A stretch of DNA of 43,364 nt from a virus. This document shows, piece after piece, positions 13,682-43,364 of the stretch (within the stretch, counting starts at the first letter, position 1; every line of letters begins with the position of its first letter). The notes below the pieces were generated by a model, which saw only the letters and a program-made list of their open reading frames with translations, ran no database searches and was not told where the DNA came from. A program made the position numbers and the translations under genes. The DNA is taken from IMG/VR virus record IMGVR_UViG_3300043449_002777, positions 1 through 43,364 of that record. One strand, 5' to 3'.

Positions 13682-13796
13682 GTGGTATCGAAAAAGTGAT
13701 TTTAAAGGAAGGAAGAAAATTCTAAGCAAGAGACAAAAGTTTTATGCTTAACTTGACTATGATATTATGATACAATCCACGCAACAAAGGAAAATC

Positions 13797-14936
13797 ATGA
13801 ATATCAACCAATTCAAAGAACAATACGCCTCCTTCAAGGATGCTGAAAAAATCGAGATAACTTGTGATCATTTAGATCATAAGCCAAACGGCGAAGTCAT
13901 CATCATTGGTAAACAACCAGCCAAACGAAACATCTTGAAAAATGGTGGAGAACAGTTTATTTGCCGCAAATGCTTCATGAAATACGACAATCCGATGAAT
14001 CGTGTTGGGCAGAGTCGCCAAACTGACGAAAACATCGAGATATATTGTCCATGTCCAGAGCATAGTGGCGAACCATCTCGAATTATGAAGAAATCTTGTT
14101 ACTATGGAAAAATGGAAAAACCATATTTGCAAACGTGTGGAACTTGTTCCCAACTAGGAAAAGAAATTAGTGAGGAACAGAGAGAAAAAATAAGACTAGC
14201 TCTTACTGGCATCGAAAGAAGTGATGAGTTTAAGGAAAAACTCAGAGAATACATGAAGAATAATCCAGAGGGAATAGCTAGAGCTTCTGCAAATCTAATT
14301 CCCGGTGCTGGCGGCGGATGGAACGAAGGTCAAGAAATGCCAGAAGATACCAAACAGAAGATGTCAAAATCTCACATGGGTAAGGTATTTACAGATGAGC
14401 ACTGTGAGAACATCTCAGAGGGCCGCAAGAAGATGTTGGAGGAAAGGGGAGGTTTCACCCGAGAGCATCGTGAGAATATCTCTAAGGCAACAATACGCCA
14501 ATATCATAGAGGGTTTGAGCCAAAGCTACATCATCTAAAAGGTTGGCACGAAAGTCCTAAAGCTGGAAAGGTCTATTTCCGATCATCTTATGAGAAAAAA
14601 GCTTTTATGAAGCTTGATGAAGATGAGTCAGTTAAGATTTACCAAACGGAAGCTATTTCCACCGAATACTTCCATCCTCTTAAAGAAATCACATCTTCTT
14701 TTTTGATTGATCTTTTGGTAGAATTCAAAGATGGTTCTCGTAAGTTAATTGAAGTCAAGCCTGAGAAGTGGTTATCTGATGATGTGGTGATTGCAAAGAT
14801 TGAGGCAGGCGAAATGAAAGCAAAAGACATGGGAGTTTCATTTGAAATATGGACCGAAATGAATTTATTCGGACATGTATTCAACGAGAAAAACATGCGG
14901 TTGTTTGCTGATAAAATTAGAAAAAAATTGATTTAA
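13797..14936 (+). CDS. Free-standing homing endonuclease: NUMOD3 repeats with PD-(D/E)XK-type nuclease
   Basis: A 379-residue protein started at the ATG at 13797, 6 bases after AAAGGA; an in-frame ATG at 13767 overlaps that site. The N-terminal third has several Cys pairs (CRKC, CPC, CGTC) that may bind zinc. The middle holds three NUMOD3-like DNA-contacting repeats (REKIRLALTG, KQKMSKSHMGK, RENISKATIRQY). The C-terminus has a fold reading RSSYEKKAF...SSFLIDLLVEF...KLIEVKPEKW, with the D and E-x-K spacing of a PD-(D/E)XK nuclease. Such genes spread by cutting alleles that lack them. Position immediately after the capsid operon is typical of a late insertion. No intron is evident around it. 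Confidence 0.85.
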   Translation: MNINQFKEQYASFKDAEKIEITCDHLDHKPNGEVIIIGKQPAKRNILKNGGEQFICRKCFMKYDNPMNRVGQSRQTDENIEIYCPCPEHSGEPSRIMKKSCYYGKMEKPYLQTCGTCSQLGKEISEEQREKIRLALTGIERSDEFKEKLREYMKNNPEGIARASANLIPGAGGGWNEGQEMPEDTKQKMSKSHMGKVFTDEHCENISEGRKKMLEERGGFTREHRENISKATIRQYHRGFEPKLHHLKGWHESPKAGKVYFRSSYEKKAFMKLDEDESVKIYQTEAISTEYFHPLKEITSSFLIDLLVEFKDGSRKLIEVKPEKWLSDDVVIAKIEAGEMKAKDMGVSFEIWTEMNLFGHVFNEKNMRLFADKIRKKLI

Positions 14937-20648: not shown

Positions 20649-22832
20649 TCAACCATTTTTCCAGCGTTGAAAACTTGTTTCATAGTCATTGGCTTGTCTC
20701 TTTCTCATTTCGGCACCGATTTCTGGACCCATTTTAGTCAGACCGAGTTCTTTTTGGATATCTTCGCCACTGAATTTGGTCGGTTCGTATTGTCCTAAGT
20801 GGGCCAAATGATCTTGGTCAACTTCGTGACCAACCATAGGATGGAACTGTCGTAGCAACTCTCTGCGTTGACTTGGGTTCTTTTTGTAGAGAGATACGGC
20901 GTGTTGACTCATGTCATCATGAGTTGGGTTTTTGGCGACATTCCAACTTTTGATCAACGAAGATACCTCGTCTACGACATCATTTGGCCACTTCATTGAG
21001 TTGAGTCTTTTGCGAATTTCATCTGGACTTCCAGCTTTTCTCAGAAGAACTGCCAAAGTTAAAACGACTTTGTTTTTGTTGACATTTTCCTTTTCTTCGC
21101 CTTTCAAGCCCAAAGATGATGGTAATTTTTCCAGATGTTCGACAGCATCCATGTCCAAAGTCATGCCCGGAAACATATAAGGTAGGGCACCAATGGCATC
21201 AAATCCATGTAAAACTATACGAGGATCTCTGGCTTTGATTAACGCTGCAACAAATTCAGCTTGAATGCGTTCAGGAGAAACGCCTTCCAAGCTACTGAAT
21301 TTCTTCATAGCTTCGAAGGTTTGAGGGTCGAGAACATCTTTAAGATGATCTGTATTGAAGATGCCGTGAAATCTTACACCACGAAGAACCCGTAACGGAT
21401 CTTCAGAAAAACGATCATGTGCAGATCCTACTGGATTTACTTTCTTTTGTTTGATGTCATCAAATCCTTTGCCCCCGCCAAAATCAATGATTGTACCGAG
21501 GCCACCGGCTTCACGAGGCATATCATAATAAAGAGCATTGAAGGTAAAGTCTCTTCTGCGATAATCATTTTTGGCATCAGAAGCTTTTACAGAGGATGGA
21601 CGGCGTCTATCTTCGTATCCAGACTCTTCTCTAAAGGTTGCAATTTCAAATTCTTGGTGATCGATTATTGCTGAAATTACACCAAAGGCTTCTCCTTTAG
21701 GAATATATTTGATTCCTGCGTTTTCCAGAATTTGTATCACTTCATTTGATAGTGCATCTGTGGCAAAATCTACATCTTTGATTTCAAAGGGCACACCATG
21801 ATATTTGCTCATCAAATAATCTCTAACGGTTCCACCCACCACATAAAATGTTTTGCCTGCATCTTTAAAAACATTTGAAAGAATGGTTGAGCCATTCTCA
21901 AATTTTCCCAAAGGAATATTTGCACGCATGGTAGCTGGTTCAGATTCTTGCGATTCAATAAATTGTCTGAAATTCATTTTCGATTCTTTGATCAGAGATT
22001 CAATTTCATCAGAAGTTAAGTTGAATTTGCCATTTTTGGTCATACCTGTGAGAGCCATGCGAATTTGATCAGTGGTTCGTCCTTTCTGTTTCAAATTTTG
22101 TACGACTATTTCTGGATTATCGCCAATAGGTTGGCTCGCACTTTTGGTTCTTCTGTTCATTTCTGAGCTATATAAATCAGAAGTCTTGTAAATCCCACTC
22201 AATCCTTGTTCGGCTGCTCCGGTATTTGATTGGGCAAATTGTTTGGCTGTGTTCCAATCAACTCCCCCTTGTCCACCTCTGCCCATTCTATCCATAAGCA
22301 GGAGAACTAACAATAATTTGATTTTTCTATCTGGCTTGTATTTGCCATTTTCGTCCAAAAGTTCTTTTTTGAGTGCTTTATTTTGGAAGCCATCTTTGTC
22401 TTTGAGGCTCATGTGGTATTTGATAACCCACCAAAGATCGTCTTTGTCTTGGAGATTGGCTTTCTCGTACATTTGGTGCCAAATTGGGCCAAGACGACGC
22501 ATGGCTTTTTCGAAAGTTCTGGGATCTTCATGTCCGTGAGCACTGAGAGTTTCCGGGTCTAAAGCGTCTCCTTTCCCGATATCGTGCAAAAGCCCAGCAA
22601 ATCTGAGGATATTGATGTCTTCTTTTGTGAAATTCAGGTCCAAATTAGACAAAGGTCCAGTTGGGTCTTCGGCTTGTTTGTTTTTTATTAGCTGTATAGC
22701 TGGATTAAGCGAAGCTCTGACCATCATTGTGTGACGATCTACAGGCCCTTCTGGATGATGCTTAGGGTTCTGAGGTACTTGGAGTTGATCTCTCAAGGAC
22801 GATTCGATTATCCATTGTTGGAAACTTTTCAT
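20649..22832 (-). CDS. HD hydrolase fused to CCA-adding/poly(A)-polymerase-type nucleotidyltransferase, with two capsid-targeting-like motifs
   Basis: A 727-residue two-part protein. Part 1 (1-285) opens MKSFQQWIIES and is an HD domain with H34 (DRHTMM) and H83/D84 (LLHDIGKGD). Part 2 opens with MNFRQFIES at residue 286 and is a class II nucleotidyltransferase: VVGGTVRDYL (GG 333-334, RD 337-338), DVDFATD (D353, D355), RRRDFTFNALYYD and RFSEDPLRVLRGVRF. CCA-adding enzymes repair tRNA ends, and the tRNA here lacks an encoded CCA. Both parts begin with a motif like the T4 capsid-targeting sequence, so the prohead protease could separate them after FIE. A TAAATA motif lies 7 bases before the ATG and there is no ribosome site. 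Confidence 0.93.
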   Translation of the reverse strand: MKSFQQWIIESSLRDQLQVPQNPKHHPEGPVDRHTMMVRASLNPAIQLIKNKQAEDPTGPLSNLDLNFTKEDINILRFAGLLHDIGKGDALDPETLSAHGHEDPRTFEKAMRRLGPIWHQMYEKANLQDKDDLWWVIKYHMSLKDKDGFQNKALKKELLDENGKYKPDRKIKLLLVLLLMDRMGRGGQGGVDWNTAKQFAQSNTGAAEQGLSGIYKTSDLYSSEMNRRTKSASQPIGDNPEIVVQNLKQKGRTTDQIRMALTGMTKNGKFNLTSDEIESLIKESKMNFRQFIESQESEPATMRANIPLGKFENGSTILSNVFKDAGKTFYVVGGTVRDYLMSKYHGVPFEIKDVDFATDALSNEVIQILENAGIKYIPKGEAFGVISAIIDHQEFEIATFREESGYEDRRRPSSVKASDAKNDYRRRDFTFNALYYDMPREAGGLGTIIDFGGGKGFDDIKQKKVNPVGSAHDRFSEDPLRVLRGVRFHGIFNTDHLKDVLDPQTFEAMKKFSSLEGVSPERIQAEFVAALIKARDPRIVLHGFDAIGALPYMFPGMTLDMDAVEHLEKLPSSLGLKGEEKENVNKNKVVLTLAVLLRKAGSPDEIRKRLNSMKWPNDVVDEVSSLIKSWNVAKNPTHDDMSQHAVSLYKKNPSQRRELLRQFHPMVGHEVDQDHLAHLGQYEPTKFSGEDIQKELGLTKMGPEIGAEMRKRQANDYETSFQRWKNG

Positions 22833-22892: not shown

Positions 22893-22920
22893 TTTACTGA
22901 GGGGTGGGTGAGCCTATAAT
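22893..22920 (+). promoter_or_regulatory. Sigma-70-type promoter for the nicotinamidase/VWA operon
   Basis: TTTACT at 22893-22898, 16-base spacer, perfect TATAAT at 22915-22920, 47 bases before the ATG at 22968. It is the best host-type promoter in the window and suggests early transcription of the + strand operon. Confidence 0.65.
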
Positions 22921-22967: not shown

Positions 22968-23843
22968 ATGCAGAAGGTTCACCTAGTGGTGATTGACCCG
23001 CAAAATTCATTTTGCAAGGTTGTGCCACCGTCTGATCAACAGACGAGTCATGACGGAGAATTGTGTGTCTCTGGGGCGTGGCAGGACATGGAGAGAGTCG
23101 CAACAATGGTGCGACGTTTAGGGAAGAAAATTTCCCAAATTCACGTCACGCTGGACAGCCATCACCAGTGGCATATTGCCCATCCGTGCTGGTTCAAAGA
23201 CAGCAAGGGTTTGCCCCCTGCACCTTTCACTTTGATGAGAAATGAGAATGGCACGATCATTGGCTCACAGTTTGACGCCAATGGCCAGCCTCATGATGTG
23301 GGTGAGTATACTCCGACCTTGTTTGGCGATGCTTACAAGTGGACTTACAAGTATCTTTCGGAACTTTCGACGGGTGGTCGTTACCCACACGTTATTTGGC
23401 CCTACCACTGTCTGATCGGCACGCCGGGTCACAACATTGTGGCACCTCTTGGCGATGCAATTTTCGAGTGGGAGCAGAATGTTCGTCAAACTGTGAACAA
23501 AATCACCAAGGGGTCTTGTCGATTTGTTGAGCACTTTTCTGCCGTCCGTGCCGAGGTTCCTTTTGGAGAAGATCCTTCCACGCAGTTGAACACTGACTTT
23601 GTGACTATGCTTGGTCACGAAGCCGATGAAGTGTTGATTGCTGGAGAGGCTCTGTCTCACTGTGTGGCCAACACATTCCGAGACATTGCCAATGAGTTGG
23701 GAGATGACTTCGTTAAGAAGTGTGTTCTTCTTGAGGACGCCTCTTCGAACGTCACTGGTTTTGAGGCTTACGGCGAGCAGTTCGTCAAAGACATGGTTGC
23801 TCGTGGAATGCGTAAAACCACGACTGCTGATTACCTCAAGTAA
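22968..23843 (+). CDS. Nicotinamidase/isochorismatase-family cysteine hydrolase
   Basis: A 291-residue enzyme likely to hydrolyse nicotinamide to nicotinate. Motifs in order: IDPQNSFC (D10, catalytic acid), TLDSHHQW with metal ligands D63 and H65, WPYHCLIGTPGH with H147, a Lys181-containing KGS segment, and GEALSHCVANTF with nucleophile C232. The WPxHC and D-x-H metal site favours nicotinamidase over isochorismatase. It is longer than the usual 200-220 residues because of an insert at about 75-135. It heads a + strand operon under a sigma-70-like promoter, behind a GGGAG site, with GC-rich codon use. A role in NAD salvage or countering NAD-depleting defence is inference. Confidence 0.88.
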   Translation: MQKVHLVVIDPQNSFCKVVPPSDQQTSHDGELCVSGAWQDMERVATMVRRLGKKISQIHVTLDSHHQWHIAHPCWFKDSKGLPPAPFTLMRNENGTIIGSQFDANGQPHDVGEYTPTLFGDAYKWTYKYLSELSTGGRYPHVIWPYHCLIGTPGHNIVAPLGDAIFEWEQNVRQTVNKITKGSCRFVEHFSAVRAEVPFGEDPSTQLNTDFVTMLGHEADEVLIAGEALSHCVANTFRDIANELGDDFVKKCVLLEDASSNVTGFEAYGEQFVKDMVARGMRKTTTADYLK

Positions 23844-23891: not shown

Positions 23892-24620
23892 ATGTCTTCT
23901 GAAAATTTGGAACAGCACAAGATTGGCCATTTTGGCTTTAGTGCTGTTCATGTTGATAGCTTGGCTGCATCAGGTTACACACTTGTAACAATTGTGTGTG
24001 ACCGAAGTGGAAGCACGAGCGGATTTCAAAAGGAAATGGAATCTGCTCTGAAGGAAGTTATCAAGGCTTGTCAGTCTTCACCACGGGCGGACAATCTCTT
24101 GATGCGTGTGATCACCTTTGATAACACGCACTCTGAGTTTCACGGCTTCAAGATGCTCGAAAGCATTAATTTGGGTGATTACGACGGATCTTTGAATCCG
24201 GGTGGCTCAACGGCATTGTTTGATGCCATGATCAACGGGATTGAAGGCACCAACAACTACGCCAAGCAGTTGGCACAGCAGGACTTTGATGTCAATGCAA
24301 TCTTGTTTTTCATCACTGACGGTGATGACAACGCAAGTACCTACGGCATCAATCAGATCAAGGATGCTTTGGGGCATTCAGTGCGTTCCGAAGATTTGGA
24401 AAGCATGGTCACAATTTTGCTTGGAGTGAATGTCAAAGAACAGCATTTCAAGAACCGACTGGAAACGGTTCACAAAGACTGTGGTTTGACGCAATTTGAG
24501 TTTCTTGAAAACGCAAGTGCGAAGACGCTTGCAAAACTGGCAAACTTTGTGAGCCAGTCGATTTCGTCACAGTCACAGGCTCTTGGATCTGGTGGGCCTT
24601 CCAAGTCAATCAATTTCTAA
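23892..24620 (+). CDS. VWA-domain protein (TerY-like)
   Basis: A 242-residue von Willebrand factor A protein, started at the ATG behind AAGGAA. The metal-ion-dependent adhesion site is complete: D37-x-S39-x-S41 (CDRSGS), T107 (NPGGSTALFD) and D143 (FITDGDD). The single compact VWA domain without membrane segment resembles TerY. TerY homologues occur with a PP2C phosphatase and a protein kinase as the TerY-P triad, and both partners follow here within 1.5 kb. GC-rich codon use like the nicotinamidase upstream. A terminator lies just after the stop. Confidence 0.9.
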   Translation: MSSENLEQHKIGHFGFSAVHVDSLAASGYTLVTIVCDRSGSTSGFQKEMESALKEVIKACQSSPRADNLLMRVITFDNTHSEFHGFKMLESINLGDYDGSLNPGGSTALFDAMINGIEGTNNYAKQLAQQDFDVNAILFFITDGDDNASTYGINQIKDALGHSVRSEDLESMVTILLGVNVKEQHFKNRLETVHKDCGLTQFEFLENASAKTLAKLANFVSQSISSQSQALGSGGPSKSINF

Positions 24621-24641
24621 TCAAAAGAAATTGACTTAACG

Positions 24642-24673
24642 AAACACCCAGATTGCAAAATCTGGGTGTTTTT
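24642..24673 (+). terminator. Rho-independent terminator after the VWA gene
   Basis: Thirteen-base stem AAACACCCAGATT / AATCTGGGTGTTT with GCAA loop and T run. A second weaker dyad, AATTTCT/AGAAATT flanked by AAGTC/GACTT, overlaps the VWA stop at about 24603-24637. It may allow partial read-through to the PP2C and kinase genes. Confidence 0.9.
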
Positions 24674-24700
24674 GTAGGTGAAACTAAAATTGGCACCAAA

Positions 24701-25210
24701 ATGATTATCAAAAAATTGTTTCAAAGCGAACAAGAATTTTTAAACTATGCGTGGTCATGGATTGGGCCAGATCACCAAAAAATTTGGCGAGATGAGGATG
24801 TGCCTTTATTGGAGCCATTTTTCGCAGCTACAAAAAATGGAAATCATAATGTTGAATGGACAGATGAAATCAAAGCATCTTTTGATCATTATGAGAAATG
24901 TAAATTAGAATACGCAGATGATCGAATCGACAAAAGAGACGCTTGTCAAAACATTGACATTGATTATCTGCTTGATTTCTTTTTTCTTGAAGAAATTGAT
25001 GCAGAAATTGATTTAGATATATCCAACTTAAAAATTGCAGAAGAGCATAAAACAAAAATGTCATTTCCCATGATATTTGTGGGTTTTATTGACAGCACTT
25101 TTGACAGATCGGGTAGCTCAGGCTACTGCTTATCGGATTACGTTTGTCTTTCAGAGTTCTCGTCAGAAAAAACTCAACTTCCATCACTTGGAGCAAATCA
25201 TGCACTCTGA
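24701..25210 (+). CDS. Acidic hypothetical protein in the VWA-PP2C interval
   Basis: About 169 residues from the ATG at 24701; an in-frame ATG at 24653 lies inside the terminator. Very acidic, with dense Asp/Glu between 85 and 125 (IDIDYLLDFFFLEEIDAEID), no recognised domain. It overlaps the PP2C start by 11 bases, implying translational coupling and a possible role with the phosphatase and kinase. Confidence 0.68.
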   Translation: MIIKKLFQSEQEFLNYAWSWIGPDHQKIWRDEDVPLLEPFFAATKNGNHNVEWTDEIKASFDHYEKCKLEYADDRIDKRDACQNIDIDYLLDFFFLEEIDAEIDLDISNLKIAEEHKTKMSFPMIFVGFIDSTFDRSGSSGYCLSDYVCLSEFSSEKTQLPSLGANHAL

Positions 25211-26069
25211 CTCTTTCTACATCAAGGGTTCAACTCACAAAGAATGTCAAGATTATGCTGCTCATGGAGAGTGTAATGGCATACCCTACGCTATCGTTTC
25301 CGATGGTTGTTCATCTGCACCACATACTGACATTGGGGCGAGATTGCTTGTTAGGTCAGCGATTAAAACTTTAGACATCGCAACTAAAATCTCCGACTGG
25401 ACTTTGGTTGAAAATAGGAATGAGTTCATTAATCTGAATAGCATCGTTAATGCTCAGCAATCATTGAACGCCTTGGAATTACATGACGACGCTCTATGTG
25501 CCACCTTGTTATTGGCAACAATCAAGATGGATCAAACACCTTCTTTTTACACTTCAATTTCTGGCGATGGATTTGTAGCAGCAAAAAAGGGTGATTTCAT
25601 TGAGCTTCATGAATATAGATTTGCTAAAGGTGCTCCTTACTATTTGCGATATGCTTTAGATGATCAAATGTCGCACATGTATTGGCAAAAATTTGGCAAC
25701 AAAGTATTGCACAATGTGCATACTATTGGTAAGGATTTGTACATTGAAACTTTTGCCAGTGAAGAGCTAGAATTCGAACATGCTCCTTCTTGTTTTGAGC
25801 ACAACTTTCCTTTGTCGGAGTATCAATGGGTTGCAGTAATGAGTGACGGAGGCGGTTCATTCCTTGAAATGGTTGATCATGGGACAGGTTTGGAGCCAAA
25901 AGAATTAAATGTTGTAGCTGTGATGAGGGAATTATTGGGTTTCAAGAATTTTCAGGGCGAGTTTGTGCAGCGGCGTTGTGTCAAAGCATTCAAGGATTTC
26001 ACCAAGAAGCATTGGCAAAACACAGACGATTTTGCAATTGCGGCTATCGCTCGCAGTAGTTTCTTCTAG
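25200..26069 (+). CDS. PP2C-type protein phosphatase
   Basis: A 289-residue metal-dependent Ser/Thr phosphatase. It starts at 25200 with TTGGAG 6 bases upstream. Metal-binding motifs: QD18YA, VSD35GCSSAPHTDIGARLL, later MSDGGGSF and a final DDFAIAAI. The DG and terminal DD residues are the expected manganese ligands. This compact PP2C matches the form seen in TerY-P triads, where it opposes the partner kinase. The kinase gene begins 11 bases after its stop. Confidence 0.88.
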   Translation: MHSDSFYIKGSTHKECQDYAAHGECNGIPYAIVSDGCSSAPHTDIGARLLVRSAIKTLDIATKISDWTLVENRNEFINLNSIVNAQQSLNALELHDDALCATLLLATIKMDQTPSFYTSISGDGFVAAKKGDFIELHEYRFAKGAPYYLRYALDDQMSHMYWQKFGNKVLHNVHTIGKDLYIETFASEELEFEHAPSCFEHNFPLSEYQWVAVMSDGGGSFLEMVDHGTGLEPKELNVVAVMRELLGFKNFQGEFVQRRCVKAFKDFTKKHWQNTDDFAIAAIARSSFF

Positions 26070-26080
26070 GATTCATTAAA

Positions 26081-27817
26081 ATGAAACTGTTTCTCAAAGG
26101 CACTGGCACCGAGATCAATTTGACTCAGAGAGAGTTCATTGCCAAAGGCGGCGAAGGCAGCATTTATGGCAAAGGCAAGATTGCCTACAAGATTTACGAT
26201 GATGCAAGCAAAATGATTTCTGTGGCCAAAATTCATGAATTGGCTGCACTAGATCACCCCAACATCATTAAACCTGAAATCGTTTTGTTAGATGGCAAGG
26301 ACAAGCCGATTGGCTACACCATGAGGCTTCTGAGTGATACTACGGTGTTAGTATCGCTCTTTACAAAAGCATTTCGGCAAAGAAATGGAATTGATGATGC
26401 CAAAATGCTGCATTTGGTGAAAGAATTGCAGAAACTTATCGCTTTCGTTCACTCCAAAAAAGTTCTTGTTGTCGATTTGAATGAAATGAACTTCTTGACT
26501 GATGCCAAGTTTTCTGAAATTTATGGCATCGATGTCAATTCGTACCAGACTGCCAATTTCCCAGCCACAGCCATCATGGATACAATTCGTGACAGGCATA
26601 TGGTGGGTCACAACTTTAACGAAAACACAGATTGGTTCAGTTGGGCTGTACTTGCGTTCCAGATGCTTATTGGAATTCATCCATATCGAGGGAGTCATCC
26701 AGATTTTGAGAATCTGCCTAAGGACCAGAGACTCAACGCACGCATGGAGAAAAACATATCAGTTTTCCACAAGGATTCAACATTTCCTAAGGTGTGTCAG
26801 CCTTTTGATGTAATTCCAACTAGTCTTCGTGGCTGGTTTATTGATGTGTTTGAAAAGGGATATAGGGGTTTGCCGCCGAAAGACTATGATGCAGTTTTCG
26901 TCGCTGTCGCTGCGGCGATTAAGAGTGTCACAGGCACAAATCGCTTTGAAATTCTTGAGCTTCAAGAGTTTTTGAGTGATGTGATCCGTATTTGCACTAC
27001 AGCAACTACAACTGTGGCAATTACCAAAGACCAAATCGTACTGGGTAAAAAATATTATCCACTGCCATCCAACAATGCCAAAATTGGATTTGCACCCAAG
27101 ACAGAAAAGCCAGTGGTGTTTTGGATTGATAACGGGCTGAAAGCCTTGGATTTGATTTCTCAAACAGAGCTTTCTGTTCCAGCGACAGGTACAGCTTTAT
27201 TAGAGAATGATGGTCGAGTGTATGTGCAAAACGGCACACACATTATTGAACTCATCATTGCAGAGTTTCCCACAGGCATAAAGATCTTGCAAAAGCAAGT
27301 AGGGAAAGTGATGGATGTGCTGGGTGCAACGCAAATTTACGATGGTTTCATCTTGCAAAACGTGCTTGGAAAGTATTGGGGAACTTTCTTTCCCGCCAGT
27401 GGTCAGAGCTTTCAACTCAGCTTCCCTGAACTAAATGATTATCAAATCATCGATGCCAAACATCAAAAAAGCATCGTCGTTATGATTGGTAAGAAGTTAG
27501 CATCTACTAAGTCGATGAGGAACAAGGGCCAATATGACAGATTTGTTTTCAGATTGGCTGCTGATCACAAAACATATGACATGTGGAAGGCCGAGGACAT
27601 TAGTCCATCAGGCGTCAATTTTGCTGTTGCTGAACATGGAGTTGCAGTTTTGATGACTGAAGATGAGCACTTGGAGGCATTTTCTATCAACACTGGATCA
27701 TCGATTAAACGATTCGAAGATGAGGTTTTGGACGCAGACATGAGGCTGTGTTGTCGGGGAAGTAAAATCCTTTTTCATAAAGGCACGAAACTTTACTCGA
27801 TTTCGATGAAGCCCTAA
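26081..27817 (+). CDS. Ser/Thr protein kinase with C-terminal beta-propeller-like region
   Basis: A 578-residue protein. The kinase domain (1 to about 290) has a glycine loop AKGGEGSIYG (21-30), catalytic Lys37 (AYKIYD), a catalytic loop VVDLNEMN with D132 and N137 (HRD histidine replaced by Val), and metal-binding D151 in GIDVN in place of DFG. All essential residues for phosphotransfer are kept. The C-terminal 280 residues have repeated beta strands (KPVVFWIDNGLKALDL, GRVYVQNGTHI, KILFHKGTKLYSI) that look like a beta-propeller sensor. With the VWA and PP2C proteins it forms a TerY-P-like triad. No transmembrane segment. Confidence 0.88.
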   Translation: MKLFLKGTGTEINLTQREFIAKGGEGSIYGKGKIAYKIYDDASKMISVAKIHELAALDHPNIIKPEIVLLDGKDKPIGYTMRLLSDTTVLVSLFTKAFRQRNGIDDAKMLHLVKELQKLIAFVHSKKVLVVDLNEMNFLTDAKFSEIYGIDVNSYQTANFPATAIMDTIRDRHMVGHNFNENTDWFSWAVLAFQMLIGIHPYRGSHPDFENLPKDQRLNARMEKNISVFHKDSTFPKVCQPFDVIPTSLRGWFIDVFEKGYRGLPPKDYDAVFVAVAAAIKSVTGTNRFEILELQEFLSDVIRICTTATTTVAITKDQIVLGKKYYPLPSNNAKIGFAPKTEKPVVFWIDNGLKALDLISQTELSVPATGTALLENDGRVYVQNGTHIIELIIAEFPTGIKILQKQVGKVMDVLGATQIYDGFILQNVLGKYWGTFFPASGQSFQLSFPELNDYQIIDAKHQKSIVVMIGKKLASTKSMRNKGQYDRFVFRLAADHKTYDMWKAEDISPSGVNFAVAEHGVAVLMTEDEHLEAFSINTGSSIKRFEDEVLDADMRLCCRGSKILFHKGTKLYSISMKP

Positions 27818-27876
27818 GCAATCACAACTTTTGGGCAATCAGAGTCATACATAGATTAGCCCATAAGGAGATGAAA

Positions 27877-28308
27877 ATGGCCAACAATCAAAAACCGATA
27901 AATCTTGAAGACCTGCCAGAAGTTTTGAAATCACAAAGAGAACAAGGGGCATTTGGCACATCACCAGTGGTCAATACAGGGCAAATCATTGTTGAAAGCT
28001 CGGCTCCAAATTGGATTACAAAACTTGCTTTCACTTCTTTTTTTGGAGTGATGTTACTTGTTGGAGGAATGTTTGCTTACAATGCTTCTATGCCACAGAA
28101 CATTACTATTGTTGTTGATTTGAACAATGGCAATGCAGAAAGTGTTGCAAAAATTGTATCAGATAGTGGTGGCAAAGTTTTATCTGTAGAGCAAAAAGAA
28201 AACTCTACTTACGCAGTAAAGGTAAGCACTCGCAAGAGTAAAAAATCTTTATTGGATCTTCTGTTAAATAATCAAAACATAAAGAAGGCGGAGATAGAAA
28301 AGCCTTAA
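27877..28308 (+). CDS. Single-pass membrane protein at the end of the kinase operon
   Basis: A 143-residue protein. AAGGAG is 6 bases before the ATG at 27877; the ATG at 27871 is too close. Residues about 50-70 (FTSFFGVMLLVGGMFAYNA) form one membrane helix, with an N-terminal tail of about 48 residues and a C-terminal domain with two strands and a basic helix (STRKSKKSLLDLLL). Family unknown. Its place after the kinase suggests a membrane anchor or effector for the triad, but that is inference. Its TAA interlocks with the stop of the convergent gene. Confidence 0.75.
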   Translation: MANNQKPINLEDLPEVLKSQREQGAFGTSPVVNTGQIIVESSAPNWITKLAFTSFFGVMLLVGGMFAYNASMPQNITIVVDLNNGNAESVAKIVSDSGGKVLSVEQKENSTYAVKVSTRKSKKSLLDLLLNNQNIKKAEIEKP

Positions 28309-29831: not shown

Positions 29832-29849
29832 TTGAAACAAGAGGCGTAT

Positions 29850-30722
29850 ATGTGGAAAAAATATCTTTTATTGTTTGTTGCTTTAATTTCTGGGTGTAAT
29901 TGGACATCTAATCCAATTACACCAGACGTAGAACCAGTTCCTATCATAGAGCTTCCATACTATGAAACATCGTTTGTAAAACCGGGCTGGGAAGAAAGAG
30001 GTCCAGAATTTATCAAATGGAATTCAACTGGCGTTAGAATTGGTGGAGGGTCAGGAACATTATCTTACTACGATGCAACTAACAACTTCATGTATGTCGT
30101 TTCTTGCGGTCACTTATTTAATCAAGGAAGAGGCACCGCTCAATATTACAAAAAATATCCTAAGACTGTGAGAATTGAAGTGTTTTATCACAACGACAAA
30201 AAGCTGTCTCAGCCTGAATCTTATGAAGGCGAGGTTTTGTGTCATGTTTGGCAATCTAGTATTTATGATGTTTCTCTTATGAGGTTCAAGCCGAATTGGA
30301 AAGACCCTTGGACATACCCAGTGGCTCCTCTAGATCATCAAATGATTACCAACAATTACTATCACAATGTAGGTTGTGATGGTCGCTCCGAAGTCGCTCA
30401 CTACCTCGTAAAATTTGCAGAAACAAATGTGCGTAATGGAGTTGAAGAACTGATTTGTATAGAGAATGTGGCACGAGGTGGGCGATCTGGAGGTGGTTTG
30501 TTGTCTGAAGATGGCAAATTAGTGGGCATAACATCAAGATCAGACCGGGTTAGTACAAGTTACTATTCTTCATTCAAACAAATTCATCAATTCTTGAAAG
30601 AAGAGGGTTTTGAATTTGTTCTAGAGGGGTCGAATGATTGGGCTAGAGACTTACCAATTATTGATCGAAACAATCCTCAAGGAACTTATCCTAGAGAATA
30701 TATTCCTTTGCCAAAAAGATAA
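29850..30722 (+). CDS. Trypsin-like serine protease lipoprotein
   Basis: A 290-residue protein begun at the ATG at 29850 behind AAGAGG; a TTG at 29832 is in frame but poor. The signal peptide ends in lipobox LISGC with Cys16, so a membrane-anchored extracytoplasmic protein is expected. Chymotrypsin-fold triad: H88 (VVSCGHLF), D140 (IYDVSLMRF) and S213 (GGRSGGGLL). Secreted proteases are unusual in tailed phages and may alter the host envelope or exclude superinfection; this is inference. Alternative: a host-like stress protease picked up by transfer. Confidence 0.88.
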   Translation: MWKKYLLLFVALISGCNWTSNPITPDVEPVPIIELPYYETSFVKPGWEERGPEFIKWNSTGVRIGGGSGTLSYYDATNNFMYVVSCGHLFNQGRGTAQYYKKYPKTVRIEVFYHNDKKLSQPESYEGEVLCHVWQSSIYDVSLMRFKPNWKDPWTYPVAPLDHQMITNNYYHNVGCDGRSEVAHYLVKFAETNVRNGVEELICIENVARGGRSGGGLLSEDGKLVGITSRSDRVSTSYYSSFKQIHQFLKEEGFEFVLEGSNDWARDLPIIDRNNPQGTYPREYIPLPKR

Positions 30723-33568: not shown

Positions 33569-33685
33569 ATGGAGTTCATTATACACTTATTTTTTTGGCT
33601 ATCTGCACAAATCATGTATTTGATTTTTATGACTAAAAGTTATTTAATAAAACTCATAAATCGAACTAAATCCGATGATACATGA
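33569..33685 (+). CDS. Candidate small membrane protein
   Basis: A 38-codon frame starting 3 bases after the CAP gene stop. About residues 2-22 (EFIIHLFFWLSAQIMYLIF) would form one membrane helix, followed by a basic tail. It overlaps the 3' end of the convergent endonuclease gene by 20 bases. The ribosome site is weak, so it may be chance. Confidence 0.35.
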   Translation: MEFIIHLFFWLSAQIMYLIFMTKSYLIKLINRTKSDDT

Positions 33686-34310
33686 AGACGGGAAAACGAT
33701 GAGCGATCACTTTGAATAAAGATTCTGTCCCCTTAACTGAAAAAAGAATTTTCTGTCTATTTCCATCATGATTGACATTACAATTAATGTCTAGTTCATT
33801 AAAATATTGCATGATAATGTTTGTGCCATCAGTGCCAAACTTAGTTGTATTGATATAGGCGTTTTTCTTACCTCTTCCGGTTTTACCACCACTATCCAAA
33901 AACCACACAGCAATTCCTGTATCTGTCAGGATATCCAAAAGAGACATTTTAATCTTTCTTTTAGAGCCATCATAAAGCTCATTGTAAAGCTCTGTTATAA
34001 CTGGGCTACAACAGGAATTACACCGAAAAGTATTACCATATCTATGGACTTTGATTTCCCCAAAATAGTCTTTCATTTCTGCCATTTTATAGAAAAGCCA
34101 TTTTTCATTTTGGCTTCTCATAGACAGATAATAGTTAATCCCTTTGGGCGGTTTAACTAATGATGAGCCACCCAAGACAGTGCCAATAAGAACTTGAGAT
34201 TGAAAATTATGTATCATGTCCTTATGTAGACTTACATCTTTAGTTTTTTCATGCACCAAAATTAAGGCGAACCATGCACCATTGCATTTACAAGTATTTT
34301 TCTTAAGCAT
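33666..34310 (-). CDS. LAGLIDADG-type homing endonuclease, first acidic residue missing
   Basis: A 214-residue protein. The first LAGLIDADG-like helix is QVLIGTVLGGSSLV, then YYLSMRSQNEKWLFYK, and the second is TGIAVWFLDSGGKTG, followed by a typical DNA-contacting region. The first motif has GG where a catalytic Asp usually follows LG, while the second keeps FLD. It may be inactive as a nuclease, act as a maturase, or belong to a phage branch that always has this change. Free-standing between the CAP lipoprotein and the virion protein; no intron seen. Confidence 0.75.
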   Translation of the reverse strand: MLKKNTCKCNGAWFALILVHEKTKDVSLHKDMIHNFQSQVLIGTVLGGSSLVKPPKGINYYLSMRSQNEKWLFYKMAEMKDYFGEIKVHRYGNTFRCNSCCSPVITELYNELYDGSKRKIKMSLLDILTDTGIAVWFLDSGGKTGRGKKNAYINTTKFGTDGTNIIMQYFNELDINCNVNHDGNRQKILFSVKGTESLFKVIAHRFPVFMYHRI

Positions 34311-37449: not shown

Positions 37450-38397
37450 ATGAATATTTTAGTTCTGCCAACTATACGAAAAAACAGCATCCAATCTTTC
37501 TTAAAAGCTTGGATGCCATATCGAGATTGGGATGCTGTTGTTCTAGTAGAGGATAATCCTGAAAAGTCTTTTGATGTAGAAGTCGATTATCACTATTCGT
37601 GGAAAGAAATCGATGAAGAACTTAAAGACAAAAGTTGGATTATATCTCGAAGAGATAGTGCAATTCGCTCATTCGGCTTTTATAAAGCATGGCAATTAGG
37701 TGCAGAAAACATTTTTACTCTTGATGATGATTGTCTGCCGCCTGAAGAAGGCATATCTTTCTGCGAAGAGCATTTAAAGAACTTGAATAACACCAGTCAA
37801 TGGTGCGAGTCTGTCCTAGGTTTCCGTACAAGAGGGATTCCATACAAAAATTTTGGATGTTTGAATAATGTGAAGTTTAGTATGGGTTTATGGCAGGGTG
37901 TGCCTGATTTTGATGCAATCCACATGCTAGCTGATTGCAAGCAAAATATTGTTTTGTCAGAGACAAGAGTTATGCCTCATGGGCAATATTTTCCATTCTG
38001 TGGGATGAACTTCGCTTTCAGCCGGGATGTAACGCCTTTAACCTATTTTCCTTTGATGGGGGTGAATTCCCCTTATGGACGTTTTGATGACATTTGGTTT
38101 GGCGTGATATGTAAAAAGATTTGCGATCATTTGAATTATTCGATCACCTGTGGCAAGCCTTACATTTATCACAGCAAAGCTAGTGATGCCTTCAGTAATT
38201 TAATCAAAGAAGCACCGGGAATAAAGTTCAATGAAAAGTTTTGGGAAGTTGTTGACAGAACACAATTTAAAGAAAGCTCCCCAGTCCTATGCATGAAAGA
38301 AGTAGGACAATTTTTAAAGTGGCATGAAGACAATTATTTAAAGCAACTTGGGCTTGCTATTGAACATTGGTCTGAACTTTTTATTGCCAATCCATAG
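37450..38397 (+). CDS. GT75 family protein (reversibly glycosylated polypeptide / UDP-arabinopyranose mutase homologue)
   Basis: A 315-residue protein. The order RRDSAIRSFGFYKAW (67-81), TLDDDCLPP (D92-D94), SMGLWQGVPDFDA, FPFCGMNFAF, PYGRFDDIWFGV and KPYIYHSKASDAFSNL matches plant and bacterial RGP/UDP-arabinopyranose mutase motifs throughout. These enzymes interconvert pyranose and furanose UDP-sugars or self-glycosylate. In a phage it may supply an unusual sugar to the two GT2 proteins, perhaps for glycan or DNA modification. Its last 17 bases overlap the convergent gene. Confidence 0.88.
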   Translation: MNILVLPTIRKNSIQSFLKAWMPYRDWDAVVLVEDNPEKSFDVEVDYHYSWKEIDEELKDKSWIISRRDSAIRSFGFYKAWQLGAENIFTLDDDCLPPEEGISFCEEHLKNLNNTSQWCESVLGFRTRGIPYKNFGCLNNVKFSMGLWQGVPDFDAIHMLADCKQNIVLSETRVMPHGQYFPFCGMNFAFSRDVTPLTYFPLMGVNSPYGRFDDIWFGVICKKICDHLNYSITCGKPYIYHSKASDAFSNLIKEAPGIKFNEKFWEVVDRTQFKESSPVLCMKEVGQFLKWHEDNYLKQLGLAIEHWSELFIANP

Positions 38398-39949: not shown

Positions 39950-40281
39950 CAGTCCTTGAGTTTTTCTGCTTCCATCATCATTTTTTCAAAGTATGCTTGT
40001 GCTAGAGCATAAGCATCAGCATATTCTATGAGATCTGATTCGTTCCAAAGACCATTGTAAGTATCTTTGTAGACAACATTGAGTCTTCCATAAGTTCTCT
40101 TAAAATTGCTAACCAGTCGTTCTTTTAATACAATCTTCTCTAACTTGCCCTTACGGGCCGCATGAATATTGTACAGAATATCTCTGGCAAAGTACTTTGT
40201 ATAAACTTGTTGAATGTATCGGATGAGGCTACAACTTTTGACCTCAACTCCCCCAGACATAGTGATATTGTGAGTTATCAT
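39946..40281 (-). CDS. Hypothetical protein coupled to the giant fibre gene
   Basis: A 111-residue helical, basic protein (SLIRYIQQVYTKYFARDIL, YADAYALAQAYFEKM). The ATG overlaps the stop of the giant repeat gene, so it is co-translated and may be its chaperone or connector. The first residues MITHNITMSGGVEV echo the repeat motif of that protein (NITASGGTVV). No family recognised. Confidence 0.72.
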   Translation of the reverse strand: MITHNITMSGGVEVKSCSLIRYIQQVYTKYFARDILYNIHAARKGKLEKIVLKERLVSNFKRTYGRLNVVYKDTYNGLWNESDLIEYADAYALAQAYFEKMMMEAEKLKDC

Positions 40282-43200
40282 AGTGGTGCTTCCTCTTCTG
40301 CATTATTATTTCCAAAGATATTTATCCAAGCTGGATTAACATCTATAGTTTTTAAGGACAAAGCTCCAAAAACCGAATTTGGCTCCTGACTTCCGTCTTT
40401 AAATTGTTTGTATTGTTCCCAAAGTTCGGCACTAATTTTATTGACTTTTTCTCTTTGCATTACAGATTCAGATATCTTCAATGGATGCGGATACGAAGGT
40501 GTAATCTTTTCTGCTGGATTTTTTTGAAATCTATTGTTTCTTTTTGATATCTTAGCTTGTTTATCTGAAGCTTTTTCTCTGCTAGATATATCTTCTGATA
40601 TCTGAATGGGCTCAGGATAAACGGCTGTTTCGCTTCCACTAGGATCAACAGAACCTCTGACAAATCTTTCATATCTTCGTGCAAGTTCATCTGCAACTTT
40701 TGATTTTCTGATATGCTCAAAACCAGATTCTGAAATCAATTCCGTTTCGGCAAAAACTCCTAAATCTGTTATGTAGTACCAAACATTTTCGATGTTTCTA
40801 AAACCACGAACTATTGTCTTTGCGTACTGCACAGGCATAACTTGAGTTTGCACATATACAATTTCATTAATTCTATACCTACGAGGAAGGTTTTGAGTGC
40901 TACTGTTGAGAATTATACGACCTGTGGCGGCTCCACCCGTCACTACGCCGCCAAATACATCATGAATGTATCCATAAAATACAAGGATAGAGCCACTTAC
41001 AAGTGATCCTCCCGTCATAAACTCATCGTAAGCGAAAGTTGCCAATCCTCCACTGACAACAACTCCACCACTTGTTAGTATTTCTGATATAGTTCTAAGA
41101 TCAGAACCACCCTCAAGAATTACGCCACTTTCGCCAATTTCATTAAATATTTGCCCTAATGTTATTTCGCCATTTACTTGAACTCCGCCTTCCATCGGAA
41201 TCAAGAAGTCTAAAGTATTTTCTGAAACACCACCAATCAATATACCGCCAGTCGGCGTTATGCTATTTTCGATTGAATTCAGTGCTGTCCCATCAATGAC
41301 AACGCCACTAAAGGCTTCAATAGTATACGTTGCTAGAGTTGTGGATGTGCCGTTTACTACAGTTCCGCCAGTTGCGGCGATATTGTAGGTTGTAATTCCA
41401 GTCGCTGAACCGTTAACTACAGTTCCACCAGACATTAATTCAATGTCACTGAAAATTTGTATTCCAGATCCATTTACTACAGTTCCGCCTGAAGCTGTGA
41501 TATTGTAAGTTGCAATCGAGGTTGCTGAACCGTTAACTACAGTTCCACCAGACATTGATTCAATATCAGCAAAATCTGTAGTCGCAGAACCGTTAACTAA
41601 AGTTCCACCACTTGCAGTGATATTGTAAGTGACAAGTGATGTTCCTGTGCCATTTACTACAATTCCACCAGACATTGATTCAATGTCAGCAAAATCTGTA
41701 GTCGCAGTGCCGTTTACTACAGTTCTGCCTGAAGCTGTGATATTGTAAGTTGCAATTCCAGTCGCTGTGCCGTTAACTACAGTTCCGCCAGACATTGATT
41801 CAATATCAGCAAAATCTGTAGTTGCAGAACCATTTACAATAGTTCCGCCTGAAGCGGTGATATTGTAAGTGACAAGTGATGTTCCTGTGCCATTTACTAC
41901 AGTTCCACCAGACATTAATTCAATGTCACTGAAAATTTGTATTCCAGATCCATTTACTACAATTCCGCCTGAAGCGGTGATATTGTAAGTTACAATCGAG
42001 GTTGCGGAGCCGTTTACTACAGTTCCACCAGACATTGATTCAATGTCAGCAAAATCTGTAGTCGCAGAACCATTTACAACAGTTCCACCACTTGCAGTGA
42101 TGTTGTAAGTTGCAAGTGATGTTCCTGTGCCATTTACTACAATTCCACCAGACATTGATTCAATGTCAGCAAAATCTGTAGTCGCAGAACCATTTACAAC
42201 AGTTCCACCACTTGCAGTGATATTGTAAATTGCAAATGAGGTTGCTGTGCCATTTACTACAGTTCCACCAGACATTGATTCAATGTAAGCAAAATCTGTA
42301 GTCGCAGAACCATTTACAACAGTTCCACCACTTGCAGTGATATTGTAAATTGCAAATGAGGTTGCGGAGCCATTTACTACAATTCCACCAGACATTGATT
42401 CAATGTCAGCAAAATCTGTAATTGCAGAACCGTTTGCTACAGTTCCGCCCGAAGCAGTGATATTGTAAATTGCAAGTGAGGTTGCTGTGCCATTTACTAC
42501 AGTTCCACCAGACATTAATTCAATGTCAGCAAAAGCTGTAGTTGCAGAACCGTTAACTAAAGTTCCACCACTTGCAGTGATGTTGTAAGTTGCAAGTGAG
42601 GTTGCAGAACCGTTAACTACAGTTCCACCAGACATTGATTCAATGTCAGCAAAACTTGTAGTTGTTGAACCGTTAACTCTTGCTCCACCACTTGCTGTAA
42701 TATTATAAGTTGCAAGTGAGGTTGCAGAACCGTTAACTAAAGTTCCACCACTTGCAGTGATATTGTAAATTGCAATCGAGGTTGCTGAACCGTTTGCTAC
42801 AGTTCCGCCAGACATTGATTCAATGTCAGCAAAGGCTGTAATTGCAGAACCGTTTGCTACAGTTCCGCCCGAAGCGGTGATATTGTAAATAGCAATTGAG
42901 TTTGCTGTACCGTTTACTACAGTTCCACCAGACATTGATTCAATGTCAGCAAAATCTGTAGTTGCTGAACCGTTAACTAAAGTTCCGCCAGAAGTTGTGG
43001 TGTTGTAAGTAACAAGTGGTGTTGCAATGCCGTTTACAATAGTTCCGCCTGAAGCTGTAATATTGTATGTTGCAATCGAGGTCGCAAAACCGTTTATAAC
43101 AGTTCCGCCCAAAGCTGTAATATTATAAGTTGCAAGTGATGTTGCAGAACCGTTAACTACAGTTCCACCAGACACAGATTCAACGTCAGCAAATACTGTA

Positions 43201-43364
43201 GTTGCCGAACCATTTGCTACCGTTCCACCAGTTGCAGTGATATTGTAAGTTGCAAGTGAGGTTGCAGAACCATTAACTACAGTTCCGCCAGACATGAGTT
43301 CAATGTCGGCAAAACTTATAGTTGCTGTGCCATTTACAGCAGTTCCGCCACTTGCAGTGATATT
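40278..43364 (-). CDS. Giant repeat fibre/adhesin, 5' end beyond the window
   Basis: The frame is open to the right edge, so the N-terminus is not seen; at least 1028 codons are present. The visible N-terminal two thirds consist of about 34 twenty-residue repeats of two alternating types: x-YNITASGGTVVNGSAT-x-x and x-FADIESMSGGTVVNGSAT. The Gly/Asn turns suggest a beta-solenoid rod like AIDA-type adhesins. Degenerate repeats then lead to a C-terminal domain (from the RRYRINEIVYVQTQV segment) with two related helical blocks (ELARRYERFVRGS..., ELWEQYKQFKDGS...). A receptor-binding tail fibre is likely; no family name can be given. Confidence 0.88.
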   Translation of the reverse strand, partial: NITASGGTAVNGTATISFADIELMSGGTVVNGSATSLATYNITATGGTVANGSATTVFADVESVSGGTVVNGSATSLATYNITALGGTVINGFATSIATYNITASGGTIVNGIATPLVTYNTTTSGGTLVNGSATTDFADIESMSGGTVVNGTANSIAIYNITASGGTVANGSAITAFADIESMSGGTVANGSATSIAIYNITASGGTLVNGSATSLATYNITASGGARVNGSTTTSFADIESMSGGTVVNGSATSLATYNITASGGTLVNGSATTAFADIELMSGGTVVNGTATSLAIYNITASGGTVANGSAITDFADIESMSGGIVVNGSATSFAIYNITASGGTVVNGSATTDFAYIESMSGGTVVNGTATSFAIYNITASGGTVVNGSATTDFADIESMSGGIVVNGTGTSLATYNITASGGTVVNGSATTDFADIESMSGGTVVNGSATSIVTYNITASGGIVVNGSGIQIFSDIELMSGGTVVNGTGTSLVTYNITASGGTIVNGSATTDFADIESMSGGTVVNGTATGIATYNITASGRTVVNGTATTDFADIESMSGGIVVNGTGTSLVTYNITASGGTLVNGSATTDFADIESMSGGTVVNGSATSIATYNITASGGTVVNGSGIQIFSDIELMSGGTVVNGSATGITTYNIAATGGTVVNGTSTTLATYTIEAFSGVVIDGTALNSIENSITPTGGILIGGVSENTLDFLIPMEGGVQVNGEITLGQIFNEIGESGVILEGGSDLRTISEILTSGGVVVSGGLATFAYDEFMTGGSLVSGSILVFYGYIHDVFGGVVTGGAATGRIILNSSTQNLPRRYRINEIVYVQTQVMPVQYAKTIVRGFRNIENVWYYITDLGVFAETELISESGFEHIRKSKVADELARRYERFVRGSVDPSGSETAVYPEPIQISEDISSREKASDKQAKISKRNNRFQKNPAEKITPSYPHPLKISESVMQREKVNKISAELWEQYKQFKDGSQEPNSVFGALSLKTIDVNPAWINIFGNNNAEEEAPL
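41341..43364 (-). repeat. Tandem 60-base repeats in exact register
   Basis: About 34 consecutive 60-base units with no insertion or deletion. Most alternate in two types, giving a 120-base period; GACATT-containing units start at 41431, 41551, 41671 and so on to 42631. The order is broken by extra single units near 42691-42751 and near 42991-43111. Several neighbouring units are almost identical over more than 50 bases, showing recent duplication. The array runs off the right edge. Confidence 0.95.

Follow-up and report, generated by a model that had tools for sequence, protein, structure and literature searches.

A predicted nicotinamidase tied to a VWA-PP2C-kinase triad: a candidate Preiss-Handler NAD+ salvage module of huge phages

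TerY-P triads consist of a TerY-like VWA protein, a PP2C phosphatase and a Ser/Thr kinase, as summarized in those passages of PMC11090510 that cite Anantharaman et al. 2012, and their kinases carry a zinc ribbon, a helix-hairpin-helix (HhH) motif or an OB fold at the C-terminus (PMC11090510). Phages have also been found to rebuild NAD+ by routes other than the one considered below (PMC12774641, PMC9503650). Here we describe a locus in a 43,364-base virus fragment (IMG/VR record IMGVR_UViG_3300043449_002777; this whole stretch is referred to as the window), in which a VWA-PP2C-kinase triad follows the gene of a predicted nicotinamidase. With a probability of about 0.6, we consider this locus to be a Preiss-Handler NAD+ salvage module of huge phages that is equipped with its own kinase/phosphatase/VWA switch. 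The window carries T4-type head genes, namely those of the large terminase, gp20 portal, gp21 protease and gp23 capsid.

The unit comprises four genes on the + strand: a nicotinamidase (PncA)-like cysteine hydrolase gene (22968..23843, 291 aa), a VWA gene starting 48 nt downstream of it (23892..24620, 242 aa), a PP2C-type protein phosphatase gene (25200..26069, 289 aa) and a Ser/Thr kinase gene (26081-27817). A preliminary description of positions 23892-27817 had noted a VWA metal ion-dependent adhesion site (MIDAS), PP2C metal ligands and kinase K/D/N/D residues in three co-directional genes, all of which were confirmed; it had left out the nicotinamidase gene, which belongs to the unit, and a conserved hairpin after the VWA gene. 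To place the locus among other viruses, IMG/VR was scanned with alignments of the kinase, the nicotinamidase and the VWA protein (70 loci, the best 80 of 110 loci, and 44 loci, respectively); these loci were merged to 101 distinct contigs, in which the four genes were sought with iterated profiles. The concern that the VWA, PP2C and kinase families might not co-occur elsewhere is answered by the presence of all four genes in 90 of the 101 contigs, 72 of them with PncA-VWA-PP2C-kinase, in this order and on a single strand, and another six with PP2C-kinase-PncA-VWA; the median gap between PncA and VWA is 42 nt. This co-occurrence is far beyond chance. It is also independent of the PncA query, since 57 of the 58 contigs found with the kinase carry PncA (VWA and PP2C were likewise found in 57 each), and among the 33 contigs of the VWA scan each of the other quartet genes was present in 30. 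Contigs with the module reach 619 kb, and three of them correspond to published records of uncultured huge phages (462-595 kb). Five copies (L152, L158, L163, L164 and L166) lie on contigs of 43-132 kb whose IMG numbers resemble those of isolate genomes, not metagenomes.

All other genes of the scanned stretches were clustered in an unsupervised manner and named by family searches and sequence reading. The five commonest neighbors of the module were nicotinate phosphoribosyltransferase (NAPRT, 29 contigs), NAD synthetase (NadE, 24), Nudix (20), NADAR (14) and NadD (14). Every NAPRT, NadE and NadD gene lies on the module strand (29/29, 24/24 and 14/14), as do 19 of the 20 Nudix genes; some of the latter are of the NrtR or NadM type, the winged-helix domain of NrtR being present in one phage copy. 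Next in frequency came calcineurin phosphoesterase, NAD+-dependent DNA ligase (9 contigs) and RNA ligase. NadE was found in 39 of 50 large genomes and lies ≤10 kb from the module in 21 (2.8 expected at a random position), and NAPRT is present in 33 and lies within this distance in 14 (2.5 expected); the corresponding figures for thymidylate synthase, which served as a control, were 14 and 2 (1.0 expected). The linkage between the module and NAD+ genes is strong, and it is very probable that the module has a role in NAD+ metabolism. NAPRT, NadE and NadD occur together near the module in eight of the 90 quartet contigs. At one locus, L006, whose kinase is 72% identical to that of the window, the order is PncA, VWA, PncB, NadE, PP2C, NadD-like, kinase, and the last 4 nt of NadE are shared with the beginning of PP2C. 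The NadD-like gene of L006 (8572-9193 in IMGVR_UViG_3300017388_000002) contains two in-frame TAG codons where an aromatic residue (Trp) is expected, for which decay, a read error and recoding are alternatives; a suppressor tRNA was sought in the scanned stretches around the module only, and none was found there.

The same neighborhoods allow a different explanation, in which the triad would sense a perturbation of NAD+ or ADP-ribose and control RNA/DNA repair, while the nicotinamidase would remove nicotinamide, a product inhibitor of enzymes that use NAD+. NADAR, NAD+-dependent DNA ligase, RNA ligase, Thg1, calcineurin phosphoesterase and KptA all recur near the module, and in the window the gene directly upstream encodes a CCA-adding enzyme. 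However, fewer repair genes recur, and most of these lie beyond the limits of the unit; NAPRT, NadE and NadD, in contrast, are often found inside it or at its edge and on the same strand. Huge phages are, moreover, rich in repair genes in general. We regard such a damage response as quite unlikely.

The product of 22968..23843 is strongly predicted to be a divergent nicotinamidase. Its catalytic residues D10/K181/C232 and metal-site residues D63/H65/H147 are 100% conserved in 96 relatives, and the sole PDB match of its profile is the yeast nicotinamidase Pnc1 (2h0r, E=4e-11). As both the motifs and the PDB match point to nicotinamidase, we favor this identity over a siderophore isochorismatase. 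The Isochorismatase family of Pfam was matched with E=3e-5, under the Pfam cut-off, and no NCBIfam match was obtained for the window protein at E<=0.001; its relatives match the NCBIfam nicotinamidase PRK11609 with E-values down to 1e-10, the best score being 41.7 bits against a cut-off of 174.

For the VWA protein, the only Pfam match was a weak one to VWA_2 (E=0.005), below the cut-off, and PHROGs gave only families of unknown function. AlphaFold models were built from alignments that combined the window proteins with those of the loci, and that of the VWA protein has a VWA fold (predicted local distance difference test, pLDDT, 86), in agreement with Foldseek. Conservation of the MIDAS in 100 relatives amounts to 100% for D37, 88% for S39, and 100% for S41, T107 and D143. 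The copy at locus L003 (17949-18689 in LR745208.1), where the motif reads DATGS with Thr replacing the first Ser, is among the approximately 12% deviating at that position. Toward the end of the protein, a Ser cluster (S221, S223, S225 and S228) at the end of the C-terminal helix is conserved at 91-94% in relatives, and a C-terminal Phe/Ile is conserved as well. The VWA gene is followed on the + strand by an intrinsic-terminator-like hairpin (24641..24672) with a 14-bp stem and a T-rich 3' side, which has a minimum free energy of -26 kcal/mol (z=-6.8) and an equivalent at the same place in L005. The quartet thus falls into two sub-pairs, PncA-VWA, closed by this hairpin, and PP2C-kinase.

The phosphatase passes the Pfam cut-off for PP2C_2 (PF13672, E=1.4e-10), and D18, D35, D123, D216 and D276/D277, which include its metal site, are invariant in relatives. 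The start at 25077 given in the list of open reading frames was rejected as an over-long TTG start, the true start being the ATG at 25200. The kinase gene matches Pkinase with E=6e-6, below the Pfam cut-off, and in relatives K37 is conserved at 98%, D132 at 100%, N137 at 98% and D151 at 100%. Its model (pLDDT 91.5) shows a kinase domain (residues 1-270, 26081..26890) and then an all-beta, propeller-like domain (residues 289-576, 26945..27808, pLDDT ~92); the former found kinases in Foldseek, and the latter WD40/G-beta and other propellers, which bears out the propeller-like C-terminus proposed in the preliminary description. NCBIfam returned nothing useful for the VWA protein, the PP2C or the kinase. 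As the VWA protein and the kinase are both below the Pfam cut-offs, they were assigned on the basis of conserved residues and structure.

Two further products that had been listed with the triad do exist, namely an acidic protein (24701..25210, 169 aa), whose gene overlaps the PP2C start, and a predicted one-pass membrane protein (27871..28308, 145 aa). The + strand thus reads VWA, acidic protein, PP2C and kinase, followed by the small membrane-protein gene. Neither protein has a confident Pfam or PHROG match, and relatives of both were found only in L005, the nearest relative of the window. They were ruled out as core parts of the module and appear to be lineage-specific additions.

Comparison with annotated systems supports the label 'TerY-P-like', both by profile homology and by shared gene order. 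Among the nearest kinases outside the group, as found in the plasmid collection, are members of annotated VWA-PP2C-kinase triads of Sphingomonas, Deinococcus and Pseudomonas; the three triads were matched by the kinase profile (1e-21, 1e-16 and 3e-14) and the PP2C profile (2e-13 to 9e-7), and two of the three by the VWA profile (2e-6 and 1e-5). TerY-P triads and the window share the same three families, the order VWA-PP2C-kinase and a Ser-rich end of the last VWA helix. In contrast, the C-terminus of the window kinase is modeled as a beta-propeller, where TerY-P kinases have a zinc ribbon, HhH or OB fold, and the module has a constant nicotinamidase partner and NAD+ gene neighbors. The window kinase is devoid of a zinc-ribbon CxxC, two CxxC motifs after residue 270 being present in one of 92 relatives; the Pfam scan detected no TerY_C on the VWA protein, and none of 100 VWA proteins has two CxxC motifs. 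The kinase C-terminus and the absent TerY_C rule out standard TerY-P membership. The most fitting description of the module is that of a separate branch of the VWA-PP2C-kinase triads, marked by a propeller kinase and a link to nicotinamidase. As noted in the preliminary description, it stands without ter genes, none having been detected in Pfam scans of the larger open reading frames of the window. In the PpkA/PppA phospho-pathway of type VI secretion loci, kinase and VWA form one protein; in the window they are encoded by separate genes.

The homology of all three parts to TerY-P-type triads raises the question of an anti-phage or superinfection-exclusion cassette, in which the triad would sense a rival phage and signal arrest, and the nicotinamidase would act as effector or nicotinamide modulator. 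TerY-P-like modules with OB-fold kinases have been reported as anti-phage in the part of PMC11090510 that cites Gao et al. 2020, and jumbo-phage Ter genes have been proposed to block superinfection (PMC7824862). However, the most recurrent neighbors of the present module include no nuclease, toxin or McrBC/helicase effector, but NAD+ biosynthesis genes instead, and PADLOC gave no match for the VWA protein and weak ones for the PP2C and the kinase. In addition, a nicotinamidase does not itself deplete NAD+. Such a cassette seems unlikely. The roles in host signaling, blocking of superinfection or countering of a host triad that had been suggested for the triad leave aside the constant nicotinamidase and the NAD+ salvage neighbors, which point to NAD+ supply.

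The module is not confined to viruses. When GTDB genomes were scanned with the alignment of the kinase, 38 loci were obtained, and among the 22 cellular loci with enough upstream sequence, PncA and VWA were found in 17 and a Nudix gene in 10. Two loci of Acidobacteriota (L221 and L237) have the order Nudix-PncA-VWA-PP2C-kinase, and a 1.36-Mb contig of Armatimonadota (L233) has PncA-VWA-PP2C-kinase-NadE; the cellular operons are flanked by ordinary bacterial genes. The Nudix gene of L221 encodes NrtR (2e-47), an ADP-ribose-responsive repressor of NAD+ metabolism. Cultured Variovorax megaplasmids (0.8 Mb) carry Nudix-PncA-VWA-NAD kinase and, 20 kb away, PP2C-kinase-pncB-NADAR-NAD synthase. On plasmid 2 of Variovorax sp. 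PBL-H6 (L255/L257, NZ_LR594660.1), several neighbors are phage-like (RNase HII, AlkB, peptidyl-tRNA hydrolase and NADAR); gp23 and Terminase_6N were not found in this region of the 0.8-Mb megaplasmid. Copies from viruses and cells are intermixed in the kinase tree, with 14 changes compared to 32 in shuffles (FastTree, many weak nodes), which indicates that the module has been exchanged repeatedly between viruses and cells. Some contigs of metagenome-assembled genomes may be misbinned phage, such as L239, which adjoins V_L125 in the tree. An invention restricted to phages was ruled out by the cellular operons and the intermixed tree.

Since the PncA-VWA and PP2C-kinase pairs are separable or reorderable, Variovorax included, one could also suppose that NAD+ genes and triad are metabolic cargo sharing a locus through mobility or expression timing, without regulatory coupling. 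This is difficult to reconcile with a near-perfect co-occurrence that persists down to ~25-35% identity, across phages and several bacterial phyla and with catalytic residues intact, and we consider mere cargo very unlikely.

Returning to the Preiss-Handler salvage module, enzymes that cleave NAD+ set nicotinamide free, which nicotinamidase, PncB, NadD and NadE can turn back into NAD+. The predicted nicotinamidase would convert this by-product to nicotinate, from which PncB, NadD and NadE, supplied by the host or encoded by the phage (close to the module in many relatives), would restore NAD+. Kinase and phosphatase would form a reversible switch on NAD+ salvage, the most likely substrate being the VWA partner with its conserved Ser-rich tail. 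The propeller of the kinase may sense an NAD+-related signal, upon which the VWA protein would bind or release nicotinamidase or another NAD enzyme. Judging from sequence conservation, the Ser cluster and the free C-terminal Phe/Ile are the best candidates for phosphorylation target and docking end, respectively; that the VWA tail is the main phosphorylation target is doubtful as yet. NADase immunity exists, and the phage might gain an NAD+ pool that outlasts a long infection or NAD+-depleting defenses of the host. Only tentatively do we propose that the triad is a dedicated NAD+-sensing regulator, in which Ser/Thr phosphorylation via the VWA switch directly controls salvage and by which phages hold NAD+ against NADase immunity.

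Several points weigh against the proposed salvage module. NAPRT, NadE or NadD were found in only 36 of the 90 quartet contigs, or in 48 when Nudix and NADAR are counted, within the scanned stretch; with about half of these contigs lacking a nearby NAD gene, the remaining steps must often be encoded elsewhere in the phage or supplied by the host. In the 43-kb window itself, which is a fragment, no NAPRTase, NAD synthase or CTP_transf_like gene (PF04095/PF02540/PF01467) was detected, so that a complete pathway in its phage is not established. All PncA matches fall under the curated Pfam/NCBIfam cut-offs, and the activity of this divergent protein as a nicotinamidase is a strong prediction. Given the hairpin that follows the VWA gene and the 20-kb separation in Variovorax, co-transcription of the two gene pairs cannot be taken for granted. 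The NADAR, Thg1, RNA ligase and KptA neighbors also fit a repair role, and we know of no experimental link between a triad of this type and NAD+.

Among known salvage systems, the phage NadV-NadM/NadR route (PMC7824862, PMC9503650) is likewise phage-encoded, is found in large phages and rebuilds NAD+ from nicotinamide, but proceeds from nicotinamide via nicotinamide mononucleotide to NAD+, whereas the present module would pass from nicotinamide to nicotinate and then through PncB, NadD and NadE, with the triad in addition. A term search of these two surveys of phage NAD+ metabolism found NadV, NadM and NadR; neither a nicotinamidase nor a kinase triad came up. NARP1 (Adps and Namat; PMC12774641) also recycles products of NAD+ cleavage and has phage and bacterial versions, but it uses the ADP-ribose pyrophosphate (ADPR-PP) route with other enzymes and has no nicotinamidase or phospho-switch. 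With NrtR-controlled bacterial NAD+ operons, the module shares the NrtR-type Nudix regulator, which adjoins several cellular and some phage copies. Known NrtR regulons consist of enzymes and transporters; the new element is a kinase-PP2C-VWA triad inside such an operon. In the literature searched on nicotinamidase, the Preiss-Handler route and phages, no account of the module was found; the 2012 Ter paper was outside this coverage and may mention a related neighborhood.

TerY-P triads are known from gene neighborhoods. In the branch described here, the enzymatic partner is constant, its substrate (nicotinamide) can be predicted and the surrounding pathway is defined, so that the question of what the triad senses and phosphorylates can be addressed with purified proteins and standard NAD+ assays. 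If the triad is indeed an NAD+-sensing regulator, TerY-P triads in general could be metabolite-responsive phospho-switches. With the proposed module, NAD+ supply in phages would gain a nicotinate route with apparent post-translational control. The module has also been exchanged between huge phages and cells, cultured Variovorax strains included.

Upstream of the nicotinamidase gene, a promoter-like element (TTTACT-16-TATAAT, 22893..22920, + strand) was found by scanning for the consensus (10 of 12 positions, a consensus match only); in an alignment of upstream regions, TATAAT is retained in L005 and reads TACAAT in L006. Divergent from the nicotinamidase gene lies that of the tRNA nucleotidyltransferase of the CCA-adding type (20649-22832, - strand), which has 727 aa and an N-terminal HD domain; a gene of this kind also adjoins the module in L005. 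Elsewhere in the window, an intein is located inside the gp20-type portal gene (4524-7082; Intein_splicing, 6e-13), a TnsA-like/NUMOD3 endonuclease gene at 13767-14936 and a LAGLIDADG homing endonuclease gene at 33666-34310. A 1005-aa reading frame at 40278-43295 (- strand) had no Pfam match. A trypsin-like protease with a lipoprotein-like signal (sequence MWKKYLLLFVALISGC) is encoded at 29832-30722, and 37450-38397 encodes a member of the reversibly glycosylated polypeptide family (RGP, 7e-36), which is best known from plants.

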